A stretch of DNA of 64,000 nt from Gammaproteobacteria bacterium (GCA_028870845.1 JAGWOR010000002.1:1-64000); one strand, 5' to 3'; numbered from the stretch's first letter, positions 1-10,044 are shown. Numbers and translations are program-made. The notes: generated from the sequence alone by a model not told the origin.

Positions 1-974
1 AATACCGTAGGCCTGGGTTCTCTGGGTTGCAAAAATGCGGTCAGGTAACTTTGAATAACCTGTTCCAGGGGCAGGCCGTTGCTGGATAGGCGGATTTCGG
101 GGAAATTCCTGGATATCACTGCAATGGTCTGCTGGGTTAATGCCTGATAGTCGGCATAACCATCATGGCTCTGCGCGTATGCAGATGCGATCGAACGCCA
201 ATTATGGGTAAAGTCCGCGAGCAGCAACTCAAGCTCTCCAATCCTGGGATGCGTGCTGTTGGCTTTTCGCAGGTCGGGAATCAGTTCCTGAATAACGCCG
301 CGCACGGTGTCTGGATGGGCGATGGCATCCAGATTATGCTGTTCAATGGCCAGCTCGGCCTTTTTGGCCGGCTCATGCGCGATCAATCTTGGTTTCAGAT
401 TATGATCACCGCCGGGCGCCCGCGCAGGCATGAATAATCCGCTCGATACCAGGCGCCAGAATGCGGCGGTACCGACCGTGTCGATCACCAGGTGTATTCG
501 GGTAGTTTGGGTATGATTCAGGACGTAGTGCGGCCGCCAGTTGTCGAATATCCAGGCTTCGCCCGCGGCCATGTGTACTTCCGTGCCATCGCATACAAAC
601 CTGACGCCGGGGTTCGTGATGATCGGGACATGAATTCGAATGTGGTCATGCCAGTAGTAGGCAATATCCGAATGCGGCTTGACTTCGGCGCCGGGGGCAA
701 GCCGCATGAGCCGCGAGCGTCCGACGATGGTGCCGAAACTGGCAAACACCTGCATAAGATAGGGGCAGTGTTGCAGTCTTGGTGTTGCCGCCATGGGACC
801 GTATGAATCGTCATTGTCAGTGCCGCCATGCGAGACCAGTATCAATGCGGAATTGCCTGGGTAATCCTGAGGATGGACCCGCCACTCAGTCTCAGGAAAC
901 TGCAGGGCTTCTGCCTGCAGAATCCCGGCATCGAATACAATAGGCAGCTTTGCAAATGGGCTGGGGAGTCGCAT
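1..974 (-). CDS. Aspartyl/asparaginyl beta-hydroxylase family protein (3' end truncated by window edge)
   Basis: Not in the ORF track because it runs off the left edge. My minus-strand translation from ATG at 974 gives MRLPSPFAKLPIVFDAGILQAE...LMRLAPGAEVKPHSDIAYYWHDHIRIHVPIITNPGVRFVCDGTEVHMAAGEAWIFDNWRPHYVLNHTQTTRIHLVID, open to position 1. HxD, distal H and R are present. Confidence 0.85.
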   Translation of the reverse strand, partial: MRLPSPFAKLPIVFDAGILQAEALQFPETEWRVHPQDYPGNSALILVSHGGTDNDDSYGPMAATPRLQHCPYLMQVFASFGTIVGRSRLMRLAPGAEVKPHSDIAYYWHDHIRIHVPIITNPGVRFVCDGTEVHMAAGEAWIFDNWRPHYVLNHTQTTRIHLVIDTVGTAAFWRLVSSGLFMPARAPGGDHNLKPRLIAHEPAKKAELAIEQHNLDAIAHPDTVRGVIQELIPDLRKANSTHPRIGELELLLADFTHNWRSIASAYAQSHDGYADYQALTQQTIAVISRNFPEIRLSSNGLPLEQVIQSYLTAFLQPREPRPTV

Positions 975-1083
975 GGTTCAGGTGATGTAGTCGCTCAGGT
1001 ATTGCAGTATATTCAACATGTTACGTTAACACCATGATTATTTACAGTACCGGGCATATCCACCGGCTGCCGGATAGAAGCAT

Positions 1084-1707
1084 ATGAGCGTCCAGTTTGA
1101 TAAACGCAACCACATCGTTGCTTGCCGGCGATTGCCGCGTCAGATCGACATTGCCGCGTTACAGCATGAGGTTGCTGCAATCCCTGCCGTTGCCTGGACT
1201 GGCCAGCGTGCCCCTGTGCACCGCGAAACGGTGTCGGTTTTTCTCAAGGGTTATCCGCCGATGCAGCATGTTGAAGGCGATCCGGAACGTCCGCCACTGA
1301 GCACATGCCCGTATATACGCCGGCTGATTTATGGCTTATTGAGAGGAAATCCCGGGAAATGTCTGCTGGCTTCGCTGCAACCGCGGGGCATTGTTTATCC
1401 CCATACGGACGCCGCCAATGGTTATTTTATCGGTTCCTATCGCATTCATATCCCGGTTTTTACCAATCCCGAAGCCCTGGTGTTCTGCAATGGAAGGTTT
1501 TTCCATATGCGGGCAGGGGAAATCTGGTTAATCAATAATCTGGCTCCGCATGCGGTGATCAATGATCATCCGACCGAAAGCCGGATACACCTGATTTATG
1601 ACGTGTTTCCTGATGAAGAAACCGTGGGACTGATAGACAGTTTACCGGAGGAAGCCGGGATAACGAATCCCAGCCTGTTGGCCAGGCTGAAGGCCAGCGT
1701 CGGTTGA
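1084..1707 (+). CDS. Aspartyl/asparaginyl beta-hydroxylase family protein
   Basis: VYPHTDAANGYFIGSYRIHIPVFTNPEALVFCNGRFFHMRAGEIWLINNLAPHAVINDHPTESRIHLIYD: same HxD...H...R layout as the gene at 1-974. Confidence 0.85.
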   Translation: MSVQFDKRNHIVACRRLPRQIDIAALQHEVAAIPAVAWTGQRAPVHRETVSVFLKGYPPMQHVEGDPERPPLSTCPYIRRLIYGLLRGNPGKCLLASLQPRGIVYPHTDAANGYFIGSYRIHIPVFTNPEALVFCNGRFFHMRAGEIWLINNLAPHAVINDHPTESRIHLIYDVFPDEETVGLIDSLPEEAGITNPSLLARLKASVG

Positions 1708-1731
1708 TTCAGGATCAACATACCATGGAAC

Positions 1732-2436
1732 CTAGAATGTATACCCGAATTGCTCGATATAATCGCGCTCCCGGTCCGCGATCAGTTGCATGAGCGGTTG
1801 GGAATAATAATTCCGGTATTCCGCATGTACGGAAGCATTCACGGCCGCGCCGGTGTTGATTTCATGACGCATCGCGGGAGACACCAATAGTCCGTGCTGG
1901 GTGAGCAGGCCCGCGAGTTCCTGGCGCAGGGATTCGTAGCGCCCAAACGTCACCCCATGGATTTTGCCTTCGACCTGAAACATATACCGCCAGATCCAGC
2001 TGAGGTAGCCTCGATTGGGTTCCTGCATGCTTGCCATAATGCTGCTGGTGATGCCGCTGCCCAGGTTGTTATCACGGTTTTTGGGAAGTTGATTTGCGAT
2101 CTCCATGCGCAGGGGCTGATGATCCTCGTCTGCCAGCATCACGAGGTTCGCAATCGTTTTCGTGAAATCAAGGGATCCATGTGCGGATACGGCCCGGTAA
2201 ATGGGGTTGCGCTCGGGTGCTGCGTGATTAAAAGCATACCAGGATACGTACCAGTCCCAGGGGTTACGTACATGTCCGAGCACGGGTAAGGTGCGCAGCG
2301 CGAGTGGCGCCTCGGAGAGGGGCAAGTGGTATCCGATGCGCGTTGCTCCCGGTATAAATCGCAGCAGCAACCGGTTCACAAACTGTCCGCCTGTCTTGTG
2401 CAGGTGAACAAACAGCATCGAGGGAGTTTTGATCAT
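1732..2436 (-). CDS. Sulfotransferase family protein
   Basis: N-terminal MLFVHLHKTGGQFVNRLLLRF resembles the 5'-PSB loop; GHVRNPWDWYVSWYAF resembles the 3'-PB motif of PAPS-dependent sulfotransferases. Confidence 0.75.
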   Translation of the reverse strand: MIKTPSMLFVHLHKTGGQFVNRLLLRFIPGATRIGYHLPLSEAPLALRTLPVLGHVRNPWDWYVSWYAFNHAAPERNPIYRAVSAHGSLDFTKTIANLVMLADEDHQPLRMEIANQLPKNRDNNLGSGITSSIMASMQEPNRGYLSWIWRYMFQVEGKIHGVTFGRYESLRQELAGLLTQHGLLVSPAMRHEINTGAAVNASVHAEYRNYYSQPLMQLIADRERDYIEQFGYTF

Positions 2437-2453
2437 TATTTAAGAATGGATAA

Positions 2454-3773
2454 TCAGACTTCGAATTTTCGGTTGAATTCTCCTACTGCCTGCACCAATG
2501 TGGTCAGGCCGCTGCGTTCCGCGGGGCTCAGTAATGGGTTCCAGATCTCAAAGATCAGCACCGCCCGCAACTGGTCGCTTTTATTCCAGGCTTCATGCTG
2601 GAAGCTATCGTCAAATACCAGGCATTTTCCTTCCGTCCAGGTGCGGGTTTCGTAGCCAACCCGGATTGCGCACTGATCAGGAACCGCCAGCGGTAGGTGC
2701 ACTGCCAGTTTGTAATTGGCCACGCCATGGTGAGGTGGAATGTGCGTCCCGGGGCGTAGTATCGAAAAGAACGCTTCAGCTGCATGACCGGGGATTTTGA
2801 TCAGCGGCAGTCCGCTTAATATATCTGCGGTGACCGGGCAGCGTTTGCAATTTTCGGTGATTGGCTCTCCGCCGCGGTATAGATGATACGAGCTCCAGTC
2901 TTTGGAATGATTTAATTCGCTCCATTGGCGCGTATCTTCGCCTTCAATGTTAACGTAGGCTTCAAGATCTTCAGGATGAGCCAGCAGGGAATCTAATTCA
3001 CGCCGTATTTCCGTGTGCCGGATTTCCAGTTCATGCATCCACTTGAAATCCCGAGTATCAAAAAACGGCCTGGGCTCAACATCGGGCATGTACAACCAAT
3101 CCGGGTGTTGCAGGGCATGCAGGTATTCGGGCGTCGTGAGTCCCGATTTGATCCTGGCGGCTTTCAGCACCCGTCTCATGGGCTGTTCGCCATGTTCGTC
3201 CATATTTTTGGCAAGCGCTGCAGTGAAATAATCATATTTGAGTCCGTACAGCGCGGCAGCCGCGTTTCTGACCAGTTCGCGTTTGCTAGCGGGGATTCGA
3301 CTGTCAGCAAGCGTAGCGTTTACTGATGGCAGTAATTTCAATGCGCGGGCATATGCGGTGATGGCTTCGTCCTTTCTGCCGGCCTGCAGGTGGATGTTGC
3401 CCTGGTAGATCCAGGAGTAGATAAAATCTTCGCGTATGCTTGTGGCATTCTGGAAACAGCGCAACGCGCTTTCCGGATCTTTCTCCGTCAGAAGCAGGAT
3501 GCCGATATTTTGATGAATAATCGGCCGCTTGGAATCCACTTCCAGAGCGCGCTCATACAGCGCCAGCGCACGCGCACTATCGCCTCTCTCCATCGCGCGT
3601 GTGGCCAGAAAATTCAGGGATCGGATGTGATAGGGCGCAGCATCCAGTATCTGTTCATATATTTTTTCAGCATCCGCGTAGTTGCCGTTCTTGGCAAGCT
3701 GACGCGCGCTTTCTGTCAGGGTGTGGATGTGCCATCCCGGTGTACCGGGTTCTGGTATAGCTTTGCGATTCAT
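2454..3773 (-). CDS. TPR-repeat protein with C-terminal aspartyl/asparaginyl beta-hydroxylase domain
   Basis: N-terminal TPRs (NYADAEKIYEQILDAAPYHIRSLNFLA...), C-terminal THIPPHHGVANYKLAVHLPLAVPDQCAIRVGYETRTWTEGKCLVFDDSFQHEAWNKSDQLRAVLIFEIWNP, like AspH. Confidence 0.9.
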   Translation of the reverse strand: MNRKAIPEPGTPGWHIHTLTESARQLAKNGNYADAEKIYEQILDAAPYHIRSLNFLATRAMERGDSARALALYERALEVDSKRPIIHQNIGILLLTEKDPESALRCFQNATSIREDFIYSWIYQGNIHLQAGRKDEAITAYARALKLLPSVNATLADSRIPASKRELVRNAAAALYGLKYDYFTAALAKNMDEHGEQPMRRVLKAARIKSGLTTPEYLHALQHPDWLYMPDVEPRPFFDTRDFKWMHELEIRHTEIRRELDSLLAHPEDLEAYVNIEGEDTRQWSELNHSKDWSSYHLYRGGEPITENCKRCPVTADILSGLPLIKIPGHAAEAFFSILRPGTHIPPHHGVANYKLAVHLPLAVPDQCAIRVGYETRTWTEGKCLVFDDSFQHEAWNKSDQLRAVLIFEIWNPLLSPAERSGLTTLVQAVGEFNRKFEV

Positions 3774-3815
3774 AGGCGTGGGTATCTGTTGAGCATGCGT
3801 CAGGAATGCAGGGTG

Positions 3816-4871
3816 TTAAAGTTGTGTTGTTTGTTGTTCGATGCCGCTGACTGGTTTGGCTTTCAGTAAATCTGCCGCCCATGCCATGGTTTCTTCAATT
3901 TGCGTGCCGAATTCATCAATGATAACGCGATTTTCCCGTTCCCGGAATTCCAAGCCGTATTCATATCTGGGATCCTTGGCGTTTGTATTCCAAATGTCAC
4001 CGTTGATCACTTGCACGAAATGCTCATAGTCCAGGCCAAGCTGCAGCCAGTTTGAGGCGCATTCCAGCTTGACGGCGGGCTCTTTCAGCAGCTTCCGTGC
4101 ATCGAGTACGCGCAGGCGCTGTGGCCAGCTAGCCAGTAATTGCAGGAAATGCAACATCTGCGCATGCCAGAAAACCGCCGCCGCACGCAGGTGAGGAAGC
4201 TGAGCGGGGATGATATCCGGAAAATCATTCTTATAGTTGACGAGTGTGGCGGCTTCGGATGCAAGCCATGGTATTTTCTGTTTGGTATCGTCGGTTTTCT
4301 TCAGGTTTGATATGAGGAAATCCCTCAAATCCGTATAAAGAAGAATACCGCGGGATGCAGGAAGGGCATTCATTACATCGTCAATTAAATTATTCGCAAG
4401 GTTTGTGGGTTTTATTAGTATGCTTTCGCCGTCTGCGTAAGTCTTGTTCAACAATGTCAGCATCAGGTCGGTAAGCGACTGTCCCTTTTGATTCCATTCC
4501 CCAGACGCCTGCATGCGTGATTTCACCGAGCTCATCTGAAAAAAAATCCAGGGTTCGCGGATTACCAGAGTTTTGCCCGGTGATTGCAATGCCCTTGCCA
4601 GCAAGGTTGAACAGCAGAATGAAATATGAAATATGAATTGAATGGGGGCCTGTGACGCCTGTATGTGGCCATAAGCTCTTATAACCTCGTCGACTGGCAA
4701 AGCCACGAGCCGTTCCCTGGTGTGCTGGATTCTATTGTCCAGGTATGTTGATTTAAGGAAGGTATCCTTGGTCACCTGGAGAAAATGGAGTTCTGCGCGA
4801 TCCACGTCCATCCTGTAAAGCATGAAATCAGGATTTTGCACGACGTCTCTGGCGTCCAATTGGTCGTTCAT
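3816..4871 (-). CDS. Sulfotransferase-like P-loop protein
   Basis: QFIFHISFCCSTLLARALQSPGKTLVIREPWIFFQ, a PSB-loop-like motif; downstream YTDLRDFLISNLKK. Confidence 0.55.
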   Translation of the reverse strand: MNDQLDARDVVQNPDFMLYRMDVDRAELHFLQVTKDTFLKSTYLDNRIQHTRERLVALPVDEVIRAYGHIQASQAPIQFIFHISFCCSTLLARALQSPGKTLVIREPWIFFQMSSVKSRMQASGEWNQKGQSLTDLMLTLLNKTYADGESILIKPTNLANNLIDDVMNALPASRGILLYTDLRDFLISNLKKTDDTKQKIPWLASEAATLVNYKNDFPDIIPAQLPHLRAAAVFWHAQMLHFLQLLASWPQRLRVLDARKLLKEPAVKLECASNWLQLGLDYEHFVQVINGDIWNTNAKDPRYEYGLEFRERENRVIIDEFGTQIEETMAWAADLLKAKPVSGIEQQTTQL

Positions 4872-4947
4872 TTACAGGTTCCTGTTTCCATCGCATACTG
4901 TAAAACTACCGTTGCATATTAGCGTTCACTGTCCATGGAATCCATAT

Positions 4948-6240
4948 ATGCATGACGAAGCCGACACAAAAACAATCACGCTCAGGGCCAGTGCGGGTGA
5001 CAATGCCGCACAGGCGCAATTAGGGTTACGCCTGTTCCAGGCGGGCCAAATTCAAGAAGCTTTGCCGTGGATTGAAAAAGCCGCTGCTGCCGAACAGGTA
5101 TTGGCTCTGAACCTTCTGGGGGTGATGCACCTGAATGGCGTTGCCGTGCCATTGGATATGCGCCGTGCCGCAACCTTGCTTAGCCGCGCATCGGAACTCG
5201 GTTTAAGGGAGGCAAACTACACCCTTGCCGGAATGCATGCCGCCGGATTCGGTGTGACAGCCGATCCGCGGCATGCCTGGCAGTTTTTGATACGTGCATG
5301 CCGGAGCGGCCATCCCCCGGCACTCAGGGCCGCTGGCGTCTTATATTTGATTGCCAGGCCCGGAGATATGAATGGGGTCCGCTTGCTGCGAATTGCTGCT
5401 GAGCGTGCCGATGGCCTGGCTCAGGCAATGCTGGCCGTGTGGCTGGCACAAAATGGATCCGCTCAGGAACTGGCTGAAGCCAGGTACTGGCTGGATCAGT
5501 CAGGCGCACACGGCCGGATCGCCGGACATTTGAATCCGGATTTACCGCCCGCCGGCGTGGCGCCGGACAGACCGATGGGTGAACCGGATTGGGAACGGCT
5601 GGAGCCCGTGATTCCTCCGACTGAGCCTGCGGGAAAATCGCAAACGCTGATTAAGAATGTGGTATATGAAATTCATGATGCACTGCCGTATTTGGCTTGT
5701 GAGTACCTGATTACCCTGTCGGCTCCACGCCTGAAGCCTTCGATGGTGGTGGATCCGCAGACCGGCAGGCAGGCGGTGAACCCTGTCAGGAGCAGTCATT
5801 CAATGTATTTGCCGCCAAATATGTGCGACTGTGTCGTCAGTTATGTAAGCAGCCTGATGGCGGGACTGGCGGAGCTGCCGGCATCCCATTCCGAACCCAT
5901 ATCCATCCTGCATTATTCTCCCGGCCAGGAATACAAACCCCACCAGGATTATTTTGTCGGCACAGCCGCTGGTGATACCCGCATTGAACAGCAGGGCGGA
6001 CAACGCAAAGTGACGGTATTCACCTATTTAAGCGAGGTGCAGGAAGGCGGAGAAACGGATTTTCCCGAACTTCACCTGCGGATTCGGCCAGCGCGGGGGA
6101 AAGCGGTTAAATTCATGAATCTAGACGCTGATGATATGCCCAATCCTATGACCCTGCATGCCGGCCGCCCGGTCATACAAGGTGAAAAGTGGCTGGCTAC
6201 GTTCTGGTTTCGCCAGCGCCCATTCGTATGGGAAATTTAG
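4948..6240 (+). CDS. Sel1-like repeat protein with C-terminal prolyl 4-hydroxylase (2OG-Fe(II)) domain
   Basis: ORF begins at 4822; likely start is ATG 4948 (MHDEADTKTITL). Sel1-like repeats, then ILHYSPGQEYKPHQDYFVG...RKVTVFTYLSEVQEGGETDFPELHLRIRPARGKAVKF...HAGRPVIQGEKWLATFWFRQRPF. Confidence 0.88.
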   Translation: MHDEADTKTITLRASAGDNAAQAQLGLRLFQAGQIQEALPWIEKAAAAEQVLALNLLGVMHLNGVAVPLDMRRAATLLSRASELGLREANYTLAGMHAAGFGVTADPRHAWQFLIRACRSGHPPALRAAGVLYLIARPGDMNGVRLLRIAAERADGLAQAMLAVWLAQNGSAQELAEARYWLDQSGAHGRIAGHLNPDLPPAGVAPDRPMGEPDWERLEPVIPPTEPAGKSQTLIKNVVYEIHDALPYLACEYLITLSAPRLKPSMVVDPQTGRQAVNPVRSSHSMYLPPNMCDCVVSYVSSLMAGLAELPASHSEPISILHYSPGQEYKPHQDYFVGTAAGDTRIEQQGGQRKVTVFTYLSEVQEGGETDFPELHLRIRPARGKAVKFMNLDADDMPNPMTLHAGRPVIQGEKWLATFWFRQRPFVWEI

Positions 6241-6243
6241 CCT

Positions 6244-6948
6244 TCAGCAGGACAGAAACCAGCCCGTGATGCTGTAGCGGATGCCGGTGGCGAACGGCGC
6301 CACGAAAGAAACACAATGTGGCGCCGGAACCCGAAACAGGCTGAGTGCGTTGAAGCGTGGCACATAGCTGTCGATGACTTTGCCTTCGCTGTCCATGAAT
6401 TGCAGCAACCCGCCCCAATGGGCCTGCCAGTTTTTTGTCAGGCTGACGACATAGGCCAGTTCACGGCCACGCTCCACGTAATCATCAGTATGCTGCTTTA
6501 GAAAATGGCCGGGCATGTAGCGTGTTGCCTGGGCATTGGCTCGAATGATATTTTCCACTCCGCTGACCTTGCGTATGAATTCCAGGCATGGCTTGCTGTT
6601 CAGGAATTCCGTCGCCCGATGCAGATATAAGCCTGGATCACGCTGTTCCCGGTATGCGGTCACCATCATGTAGGTGTTAAACGCGAACTGATATCCCTCG
6701 CGTGCGGTGCTTTGGATATTTTGCATGAACGCCATGCGTTCAGCCTGGCTCATGGACTCAAATACGGCCTTTGGCAGGGTGGCGCCGCTATTGCCCTTCT
6801 GATACGCCAGGTCCCAGCGCACCTGCCTGGCCAGGCATTCGTGCAGTGCTTCCGCCTGATCCGGCACCAGGAAATCGGAAATCTGCAGCCGTTGTGCAAG
6901 GGCAAAATCAGCATGCAGCCTTTCACTGTCTAAATTCGTATTAAGCAT
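6244..6948 (-). CDS. 2OG-Fe(II) oxygenase (prolyl 4-hydroxylase-like)
   Basis: RYMPGHFLKQHTDDYVERGRELAYVVSLTKNWQAHWGGLLQFMD...PAPHCVSFVAPFATGIRYSITGWFLSC; likely start MLNTNLDSERLH at 6948. Confidence 0.85.
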   Translation of the reverse strand: MLNTNLDSERLHADFALAQRLQISDFLVPDQAEALHECLARQVRWDLAYQKGNSGATLPKAVFESMSQAERMAFMQNIQSTAREGYQFAFNTYMMVTAYREQRDPGLYLHRATEFLNSKPCLEFIRKVSGVENIIRANAQATRYMPGHFLKQHTDDYVERGRELAYVVSLTKNWQAHWGGLLQFMDSEGKVIDSYVPRFNALSLFRVPAPHCVSFVAPFATGIRYSITGWFLSC

Positions 6949-7024
6949 GGTTTTAGGAATGTGGCCGGGAGATTGCGACCGCATTATAGGCAGCCAGGCG
7001 GCGACTTTCACAGGTGGCGGACGA

Positions 7025-7149: not shown

Positions 7150-10044
7150 ATGAACAACTCTTACCAACAGCGGTATGTGACAACGCCGTTCTCCGGCAGC
7201 AATGCTGCATACGTTGAATTCCTGTACGAACAGTATATGGAAAATCCAGAATCGGTCCCCAAGGAGTGGGCGGATTATTTCCGCGAGTTGCAGGCAAGCA
7301 CGCCCGGACCAAAGGATACCCCCCGCAGCCCGGTGGAATTGGAGCTGGCAATCCGGGCCCATACCGGCCGTCTCAATCAGCGAGCATCTGCAATGCCGCT
7401 GCATCCCCTGGCCGCTGAGAAGCAGGCTGCCGTCATTAATTTGATCGAGGCGTATCGGGAGCGCGGACACTTGCGCGCCAGACTGGACCCGCTTGAGCTG
7501 TACGTGCCGCTGCCGGTTCCGGATCTGGACCTGGAGTTTCATGGACTGGGCAAGCCGGATATGGACACGGTATTCAGCACCGTGTCACTCAGCGGGCCGG
7601 ACCGGATGCCGCTGCGGGACATCTGGGCGATCTTGCAGGACAGCTACTGCCGGACACTGGGTTTCGAATTCATGCATATGAGCAACAGTGAAGAACGCCT
7701 GTGGATCATTCAGCGGATCGAATCGGCGCGCGCCAATGCCCGGCTTACACCCGACGAGAAACGCATGATCCTGGATTCGCTGATTGCCGCCGAAGGTATG
7801 GAGAAATACCTGCATACGCGCTATGTGGGACAAAAGCGCTTCTCCATTGAGGGCGGCGATGCGCTGATTGCCATGCTGCACGACCTCATCAAGTACGCCG
7901 CTGGCTTGCACGTGCAGGAAACCGTGATTGGCATGGCTCATCGTGGCAGGCTGAACGTGCTCATCAATATGCTGGGCAAGTCACCGCGTGAGATCTTTTC
8001 GGAATTCGAAGGCAGCTATGATCCGCAGCACGAAACCGGTTCCGGAGATGTGAAATACCATCTTGGGTTTGCCTCGGATTTAAAGACGGTCAATGGCAAT
8101 ATGCATGTGGCATTGGCGTTCAACCCGTCGCATCTGGAGATTGTGAATCCGGTGGTTGTGGGTTCAGTGCGGGCCCGCCAGGACCGGCGCGGGGATGCCA
8201 GCGGGGAAATCGTACTGCCGGTGCTGATTCACGGTGATGCGGCCTTGTCAGGGCAGGGCGTGGGCATGGAAACGCTGCAGCTTTCACAAACCCGGGGTTT
8301 CCACACCGGCGGCACCGTTCACATCGTGCTCAACAACCAGATCGGCTTTACCATCAGCAACCCGCACGATGCCAGATCCACGCCGTATTGCACGGATATC
8401 GCCAAGATGCTGGAAGCGCCGGTAATCCACGTGAACGGCGATGACCCGGAAGCCGCGATTTTTGCCACGCGCCTGGCTCTCGATTACCGCCAGAAATTTC
8501 ACAAGGATGTATTCATCGACCTGGTTTGCTACCGGCGTCACGGTCATAACGAAGCGGATGAACCTGCGGCTACTCAGCCGATCATGTACCGGAAAATCCG
8601 TGCACATCCCACTACCTTGGAATTGTATGTGCAAAATCTCCAGCAACAGAATCTGGCGGATAAGGCCGCGGTAGACGCCAAACTGATCCAGTATCGCGAT
8701 CAGCTGGATGCCGGCAAACCGGTTGCCCCGAGCATCGTGACCCACGTGCCGAACCAGTACACGGTTAACTGGTCGAGGTATCAACAGCGGCATTGGCACG
8801 AAGAGGTAAATACCCAGCTTGCGGATAATCAATGCCAGGAGCTGGCCGAGGCGATAAACCATGTGCCGGATAATGTTATCCTGCATCCCACCGTTGCTCG
8901 CATATATGATGCGCGTCGCAAGATGGCGGCAGGCACGTTGCCAATGGACTGGGGGTTCGCCGAGTTGCTGGCATATGCCAGCCTGGTGACCAGTGGCTAT
9001 CCGGTGCGCCTGACCGGGCAAGATACGGGCCGCGGTACTTTTTTCCACCGCCAGGCCGTACTGCATAATCAGAAAGATGGCAGCACCTACATCCCGCTTG
9101 AGCACATTGCCAAGGACCAAAAACCGTTCATGGTGGTGGATTCGCTGCTTTCCGAAGAAGGCGTCATGGGCTTCGAATATGGCTACAGCACCGCAGAGCC
9201 CGATGCGCTGGTGATCTGGGAGGCCCAGTATGGCGATTTCGCCAACGGCGCGCAGGTGGTTATTGATCAGTTCATTTCTGCAGGCGAGGCCAAATGGGGT
9301 CGTCTGTGCGGGCTCGTGCTGTTTCTCCCGCATGGTTACGAAGGCGCAGGTCCCGAGCATTCTTCCGCGCGGTTGGAGCGTTACTTGCAGTTGTGCGCAG
9401 AGCACAACATGCAGGTCTGCATACCATCCACCCCCGCGCAATTTTTCCATATGCTGCGTCGCCAAGTCATGCGACCATACCGCAAACCCCTGATTGTCAT
9501 GACACCCAAGAGTTTGTTGCGGCACAAACTCTCTGTATCGCAGTTGCGGGACCTTACACATGGACGTTTCCATGTGGTTATTCCTGAGATTGACGATCTC
9601 CAGACCGGGCGCATACGGCGTGTAGTGTTCTGCTCCGGCAAGGTCTATTACGATCTGCTGGAAGCCAGGCGTGCGGACAAAAGCATAGATGACATAGCGC
9701 TGGTGCGGCTTGAGCAGCTTTATCCATTTCCCCATGAGGAATATGCAGATATCATCCAGCGCTATTCACAGGCCCGCGATATCGTTTGGTGCCAGGAGGA
9801 ACCGCAGAATCAGGGCGCCTGGTATGAAATCCGGCATCGTTTACAGGACCCGCTCACGGCATTGCACACGCTGCGCTACGTTGGCCGTCCGGCATCCGCA
9901 TCTCCAGCGGCGGGTTACGCGCAGCTGCACAAGCAACAGCAGGCTGCGTTGATCAGTGCAGCGCTAAGCAAAGGCGCAGTGCCGATGCCGGCAGACGCGC
10001 CTAAAATGAAAGCCAAAGCCAAAGCCAGAGCTGAATCGGAGTAG
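7150..10044 (+). CDS. sucA: 2-oxoglutarate dehydrogenase E1 component
   Basis: 964 aa; MNNSYQQRYVTTPFSGSNAAYVEFLYEQY..., VIGMAHRGRLNVLINMLGK, GHNEADEPAATQPIMYRKI; followed by E2 and E3 genes. Confidence 0.98.
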   Translation: MNNSYQQRYVTTPFSGSNAAYVEFLYEQYMENPESVPKEWADYFRELQASTPGPKDTPRSPVELELAIRAHTGRLNQRASAMPLHPLAAEKQAAVINLIEAYRERGHLRARLDPLELYVPLPVPDLDLEFHGLGKPDMDTVFSTVSLSGPDRMPLRDIWAILQDSYCRTLGFEFMHMSNSEERLWIIQRIESARANARLTPDEKRMILDSLIAAEGMEKYLHTRYVGQKRFSIEGGDALIAMLHDLIKYAAGLHVQETVIGMAHRGRLNVLINMLGKSPREIFSEFEGSYDPQHETGSGDVKYHLGFASDLKTVNGNMHVALAFNPSHLEIVNPVVVGSVRARQDRRGDASGEIVLPVLIHGDAALSGQGVGMETLQLSQTRGFHTGGTVHIVLNNQIGFTISNPHDARSTPYCTDIAKMLEAPVIHVNGDDPEAAIFATRLALDYRQKFHKDVFIDLVCYRRHGHNEADEPAATQPIMYRKIRAHPTTLELYVQNLQQQNLADKAAVDAKLIQYRDQLDAGKPVAPSIVTHVPNQYTVNWSRYQQRHWHEEVNTQLADNQCQELAEAINHVPDNVILHPTVARIYDARRKMAAGTLPMDWGFAELLAYASLVTSGYPVRLTGQDTGRGTFFHRQAVLHNQKDGSTYIPLEHIAKDQKPFMVVDSLLSEEGVMGFEYGYSTAEPDALVIWEAQYGDFANGAQVVIDQFISAGEAKWGRLCGLVLFLPHGYEGAGPEHSSARLERYLQLCAEHNMQVCIPSTPAQFFHMLRRQVMRPYRKPLIVMTPKSLLRHKLSVSQLRDLTHGRFHVVIPEIDDLQTGRIRRVVFCSGKVYYDLLEARRADKSIDDIALVRLEQLYPFPHEEYADIIQRYSQARDIVWCQEEPQNQGAWYEIRHRLQDPLTALHTLRYVGRPASASPAAGYAQLHKQQQAALISAALSKGAVPMPADAPKMKAKAKARAESE

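Follow-up and report, generated by a model that had tools for sequence, protein, structure and literature searches.

A TonB-dependent-receptor-linked island of 2OG/Fe(II) oxygenases and sulfotransferases, a candidate system for modifying exported proteins

Introduction

In methanobactin operons the sulfotransferase MbnS is encoded beside MbnT, a TonB-dependent receptor (TBDR). A different bacterial enzyme, RaxST, sulfates the RaxX precursor before type I export of RaxX (PMC6637879). Among hydroxylases, human AspH binds its protein substrate through a TPR domain, and Gln at its position 735 lowers 2OG efficiency >3000-fold, as against ~15-fold for Gln at 688 (PMC12816917).

Here we compare with these systems a gene island of which seven genes lie at the start of a 64,000-nt stretch of gammaproteobacterial DNA (the window; C12:1-64000 of genome G000). 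Like methanobactin operons, the island has a sulfotransferase beside a TBDR, but its oxygenases are of other families, no MbnA-like precursor was found, and no genes for MbnA, MbnB or MbnC were seen among the annotated neighbours. It differs from the RaxST system in having neither a RaxX-like precursor nor a type I exporter, and in having a TBDR as partner instead.

Results

Seven enzyme genes

ORF calling placed seven consecutive genes, w1–w7, at the window start, five for 2OG/Fe(II) oxygenases and two for sulfotransferases; this content, the basis of the original prediction, is confirmed by the ORFs, Pfam, and family or structure matches. Three of the oxygenases belong to the AspH family (PF05118, cut-off 22.6 bits): w1 (3..974, minus strand; 68 bits), the small w2 (1084..1707, plus strand; 45 bits) and w4 (2454..3773, minus strand; 168 bits). 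All three score above the cut-off and have both His iron ligands and the 2OG-binding Arg. The HxD..H..R motif of w1 (H101-x-D103, H149, R159) is kept in 77/77 aligned homologues and that of w2 (H107-x-D109, H156, R167) in 36/36, while H348, H393 and R403 of w4 are kept in 17/17. The fourth oxygenase, w6 (4948..6240, plus strand), combines Sel1 repeats with a prolyl-4-hydroxylase-like domain (PF13640) bearing HxD..H..K; the fifth, w7 (6244..6948, minus strand; PF13661/PF13640), is of the PPHD/OGFOD1 (protein prolyl hydroxylase) type and bears HxD..H..R. Both motifs are invariant in their family sets. The ORF calls were longer for these two: 4822–6240 (plus strand) for w6, where an ATG at 4948 is the likelier start, and 6244–7011 (minus strand) for w7, where an ATG at 6948 corresponds to the end first proposed. 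Beyond w7, sucA starts at 7150. Iron ligands are thus intact in the homologue sets of all five oxygenases, as had been read from the window, and the alignments gave no sign of catalytic-residue loss. Also as read there, two oxygenases are fused to helical repeats, TPR in w4 and Sel1 in w6, both matched by Pfam.

The best PDB match for both w1 (4e-10) and w2 (6e-5) is L-proline cis-4-hydroxylase (4p7w), but the similarity is weak, and w1 is instead fused or coupled to a sulfotransferase, in a protein-modification context. Likeness to human AspH is more extensive for w4, which aligns over 180 residues (112 bits to 5apa) and has the same domain order (TPR, then oxygenase), the two His ligands and the 2OG-binding Arg. 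In the alignment to 5apa the R735 equivalent is retained, and the R688 equivalent is Ala. The w4 system differs in being linked to a TBDR; EGF-like proteins, whose Asp/Asn residues are the substrates of human-type AspH, were not seen among the scanned neighbours. PDB matches for w7 (4iw3, 2.8e-4; 4nhx, 5.7e-4) mark it as a weak relative of bacterial PPHD and of OGFOD1. It is only loosely tied to the island, since in several sister genomes it is located elsewhere.

The two sulfotransferases had no Pfam match when the window ORFs were searched. The first, w3 (1732..2436, minus strand), is a small protein of the Sulfotransfer_2 type with PAPS motifs KTG (5'-PSB) and RNP..S (3'-PB); alphaproteobacterial members of its family match PF03567 Sulfotransfer_2 (3e-12), K16/R83/S91 are invariant in alignment A7, and the Arg and Ser of the PAPS motif are present in 50/50 relatives. 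Of the domain families that had been suggested for searching, PF05118 and 2OG-FeII_Oxy matched window genes directly, and PF03567 matched relatives of w3. The second, w5 (3816..4871, minus strand), is divergent. Its AlphaFold model is confident (pLDDT 90.7) and its best PDB matches are sulfotransferases only, with tyrosylprotein sulfotransferases first (E 7e-6, TM 0.42–0.54). We treat w5 as a family of its own with a predicted sulfotransferase fold. Its activity is uncertain, because the 3'-phosphate Arg is absent from the conserved positions of the w5 family. A first scan of genome contigs with w5 alone as query gave no matches.

Continuation beyond the contig end

Gene w1 is truncated because the window starts at base 1 of contig C12. 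Homologues in sister species are 614–694 aa long and have a C-terminal Sulfotransfer_3 domain. The corresponding half was found at G000:C43:1-690, at the start of a ~4-kb contig; the fusion profile is covered at positions 1–312 on C12 and 378–607 on C43, with a gap of ~65 codons between. Gene 1 is therefore best read as an AspH::Sulfotransfer_3 fusion (AspH::ST) split over two contigs, of which the gene first described as AspH-like is the PF05118 half. A structure prediction for the fusion was poor (pLDDT 55) and was not used.

After the fusion half, C43 encodes a TPR-Sulfotransfer_3 protein (TPR-ST), an oxygenase nearest to NCBIfam FlmC, and a PF13759 oxygenase. Gene order in loci L092 and L106 suggests that C42 follows C43; this contig ends in a 1008-aa TBDR with three TPR-STs behind it. 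Both joins are drawn from homology and order only, with no sequence overlap shown. The sequence to the left of the window, flagged for inspection in the original prediction, thus appears to supply the w1 sulfotransferase half, four TPR-STs, two further oxygenases and a TBDR; the fusion and the TBDR had escaped the first reading because they lie off the contig. All TPR-STs found in G000 adjoin its two ~1010-aa TBDRs, and none was seen adjoining its other four TBDRs (680–853 aa). An S8-PKD protease adjoins the TPR-ST triplet. The seven window genes make up the end nearest sucA of a larger gene set with wide conservation.

Conservation of the gene set

The arrangement beside sucA recurs in sister genomes, completely or partially (L026, L027, L028, L029/L099, L030/L106, L092 and L107), where named relatives are labelled Natronospirales. 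A functional tie to the neighbouring sucA-sucB-lpd genes was considered and rejected; the position is common to sister species only and is taken here as location, not function.

A scan that used the AspH::ST alignment as query gave 80 loci, spread over Gamma-, Beta- and Alphaproteobacteria, Cyanobacteria, Planctomycetes, Polyangia and Acidobacteria. Since w1 homology was the criterion for picking these loci, many of which are related, the counts that follow are not independent. Among 78 anchored loci in named genomes, AspH and ST were fused in 36 and unfused in 42. Within six genes, the unfused loci had a TPR-ST in 41/42, a TBDR in 39/42 and w3 in 36/42. The gene caller reported w2 in 24/42, and tblastn found it in 11/11 further tested loci where the caller had missed it. 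In 59/78 anchored loci the gene-1 homologue had a TBDR no more than five genes away; TBDR frequency peaked at same-strand positions two to four genes upstream, compared with roughly 0–10% at other offsets. Several of the 19/78 loci without a TBDR in that range are cut by contig ends, and four with the fusion (L108, L116, L117, L127) adjoin a beta-helix, Calx-beta or cadherin protein. Overall, matches to the profile are rare: 6/399 genomes sampled across the phylum, G000 included.

The most regular form is a five-gene operon in ~40 alphaproteobacteria, the culturable and non-pathogenic Caulobacter, Brevundimonas and Sphingomonas among them, with fixed order and spacing: TBDR-(~70 nt)-w3-(-4)-w2-(-4)-TPR-ST-(+3)-w1. 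Its third gene is the w2 orthologue, and the TBDR is its sole non-enzyme. Partner TBDRs fall into three sequence clusters; the alphaproteobacterial partner at locus L149 scores 625 bits against the TIGR01782 model (NCBIfam cut-off 310), and the G000 TBDR lies outside that subfamily. Family synteny and recurrence of the core across phyla rule out a phylogenetic accident of one MAG, and they bear out the expectation that these genes co-occur. Both w5 and w7 are outside the widely conserved core.

Tyrosine sulfotransferase affinity of the TPR-STs

With the TPR-ST domain profile as query against the PDB, human protein-tyrosine sulfotransferase came first over the whole domain (E 1.8e-27, 100 bits), whereas cytosolic SULTs reached only ~1e-4 (~25 bits). 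At least 71/72 TPR-STs retain the active-site R, E, K and R. The motif SxxQVxxP, whose aligned human counterpart is the SxxQVIxPV segment, is present in 64/72 of them and in 0/787 other neighbours. These conserved residues are, we presume from the TPST2 structure, the catalytic residues of TPST. The TPR-ST catalytic domain is thus nearest to TPST1/2 in the PDB and has the Arg, Glu, Lys and SxxQV of a protein-tyrosine sulfotransferase, an activity that we predict for it; TPR-STs differ from TPST1/2 and RaxST by their TPR docking domain.

We looked for sulfotyrosine-like sites in the TBDRs. Invariant Tyr was frequent in the operon TBDRs (31/43), but invariant Gly and Trp were frequent too and the comparison TBDRs were just 18–26% identical, so that no conclusion is drawn. 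Conserved Tyr in an acidic context gave no clear signal.

The sulfate donor PAPS would come from APS kinase, which was found in 24/24 named genomes that carry either the operon or the fusion and in 6/12 genomes of the window's family. It was not found in G000 (a MAG, 87.6% complete) or in its sisters G001 (94%) and G004 (91%). A weak match in G000 was rejected, as the ORF reads as an ABC lipid exporter. Genome gaps may explain the absence, though three misses are uncomfortable.

Discussion

We propose, with a probability of about 0.45, that this receptor-linked island acts on an exported protein ahead of its secretion, hydroxylating and tyrosine-sulfating it, and that this protein is most likely the partner TBDR. 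Cytoplasmic enzymes would dock the client via TPR or Sel1 repeats; 2OG/Fe(II) oxygenases of the AspH and prolyl-hydroxylase types would hydroxylate its side chains, and PAPS-dependent sulfotransferases, the TPST-like TPR-STs included, would, presumably afterwards, add sulfate to tyrosines or to the hydroxyls just formed. The likeliest client would be the TBDR of the same operon, whose modified surface may be tuned for ligand capture. TPR domains occur in both enzyme types and therefore point to protein substrates. The common denominator of the loci is an exported surface protein, from which we infer that this protein may be hydroxylated and sulfated before export, with the TBDR as client by default. 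The nutrient context differs between clades, which speaks against chemistry directed at any single ligand, although TBDR and enzymes might still be linked solely through a product. A TBDR would be no less expected of a system that makes or uses a TBDR-imported ligand.

Such a ligand could be a small metallophore or peptide that is hydroxylated and sulfated, secreted and then reimported through the TBDR in the manner of methanobactin, although we consider this unlikely. Beta-hydroxy-Asp serves as a ligand in siderophores, the nearest relatives of w1 and w2 are an enzyme acting on free L-proline and the nonproteinogenic-amino-acid hydroxylase family, and an oligopeptide ABC importer is found near the TBDR in several beta- and gammaproteobacteria. 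Yet the core showed no gene for an NRPS/PKS, a ligase or an exporter, and the TPR-STs resemble a protein-tyrosine sulfotransferase. Nor was there a conserved RiPP or RaxX-like precursor in the cluster: islands of the window's family share no small ORF, and the tight alphaproteobacterial operon has no space for a precursor peptide gene. The lack of NRPS/PKS, RiPP precursor and capsule genes, observed from the window at the outset, extends to the core. Of the hydroxylation and sulfation system then envisaged, for proteins, peptides or a surface glycan, protein substrates are best supported; the peptide branch is weakened by the missing precursor and the missing space for one, and the glycan branch because the TPR-STs are closest to protein-tyrosine sulfotransferases and the core has no capsule genes.

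The beta-helix, Calx-beta and cadherin genes beside the fusion in four loci, and the S8-PKD protease beside the TPR-ST triplet of G000, would fit modification of one or more other exported proteins, namely those beta-proteins in some taxa and the S8-PKD subtilase in this genus, with the TBDR merely co-regulated. We regard this as improbable, given that the TBDR is the sole constant partner in ~40 alphaproteobacteria. Tailoring of a surface glycan or of an imported substrate, such as a phosphonate or lipid head group, seems very unlikely. Phosphonate or phosphocholine genes do lie near the operon in 31/43 alphaproteobacterial loci (phosphonoacetaldehyde hydrolase, Phn-HD oxygenase, HpnW, PhnR, phosphocholine phospholipase C), and phosphonate catabolism can run a 2OG hydroxylase ahead of an HD oxygenase; but the link is confined to alphaproteobacteria, with 0 loci elsewhere, sulfotransferases have no role in phosphonate chemistry, and the core is without glycan genes.

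The island had been called possibly undescribed. The enzyme families are known, so the description applies to their combination, for which we found no account in open-access full text (the work of Iyer et al. 2010 about peptide-modifying dioxygenases could cover it in part). The core claim is novel if the TBDR is the substrate, as TBDR modification of this kind seems undescribed so far. More tentatively, bacteria of several phyla might possess dedicated kits by which their own TBDRs, or else other surface beta-proteins, are hydroxylated and tyrosine-sulfated while still in the cytoplasm. TBDRs serve many Gram-negative bacteria as their principal routes of nutrient entry, and the proposed modification of the receptor would, if true, represent a class of post-translational modification that is not known from the outer membranes of Gram-negative bacteria. 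Bacterial tyrosine sulfation would then extend far beyond RaxX, and if TBDR loops are hydroxylated and sulfated, ligand specificity and recognition by phages or bacteriocins would need rethinking.

Neighbours of related loci

In the sister species G001, a group II intron maturase gene (L027:4709-6073, contig G001:C19) was inserted within the island, which here is without w1, w2, w3 and the first TPR-sulfotransferase. APS kinase was not found in the source genome (G000) or its sisters G001 and G004. In the family of the source genome the enzyme occurs fused to ATP sulfurylase (L188:73-2034), and in several genomes of that family APS kinase and non-TPR sulfotransferases share one contig. The triplet of TPR-sulfotransferase genes adjoins an S8 peptidase gene with a PKD domain (L087:4786-7104), itself next to a UDP-glucose dehydrogenase gene; L085, L086 and L089 have similar-length genes in the equivalent position.

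A fusion of AspH and Sulfotransfer_3 is extended by DUF4915 (TIGR03032 type) into a triple fusion at L116:9869-13114 and L117:10001-13030, and L127 has its counterpart of equal length. At all three loci it adjoins a Calx-beta, beta-helix or cadherin gene. DUF4915 is an unfused, separate neighbour gene in cyanobacterial L111. At five beta- and gammaproteobacterial loci (L115, L128, L133, L135 and L140), the TonB-dependent receptor (TBDR), AspH and sulfotransferase genes adjoin those of an oligopeptide ABC importer, namely an OppA-like SBP, permeases and ATPases.

Possible metabolic links

A paralogue of w5, the divergent sulfotransferase-fold protein, directly adjoins a gene of ∼453 aa in the source genome (L033:9609-13525, contig G000:C16) and in relatives L032, L035, L036, L038, L039, L042 and L043. 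The neighbour was annotated in the source genome copy only, the other loci being matched by gene length and position; there it encodes a FAD_binding_3 monooxygenase, and the gene after it is kynureninase-like. This arrangement suggests that the w5 paralogue is a sulfotransferase-fold protein linked to kynurenine metabolism.

Phosphonate and phosphocholine genes lie near the alphaproteobacterial operon TBDR-w3-w2-TPRST-w1 (L141-L183), including those for phosphonoacetaldehyde hydrolase, Phn-HD oxygenase, HpnW, PhnR, PC-specific phospholipase C and DUF5690. Given these neighbours, the TBDR of this operon may act in phosphorus scavenging.
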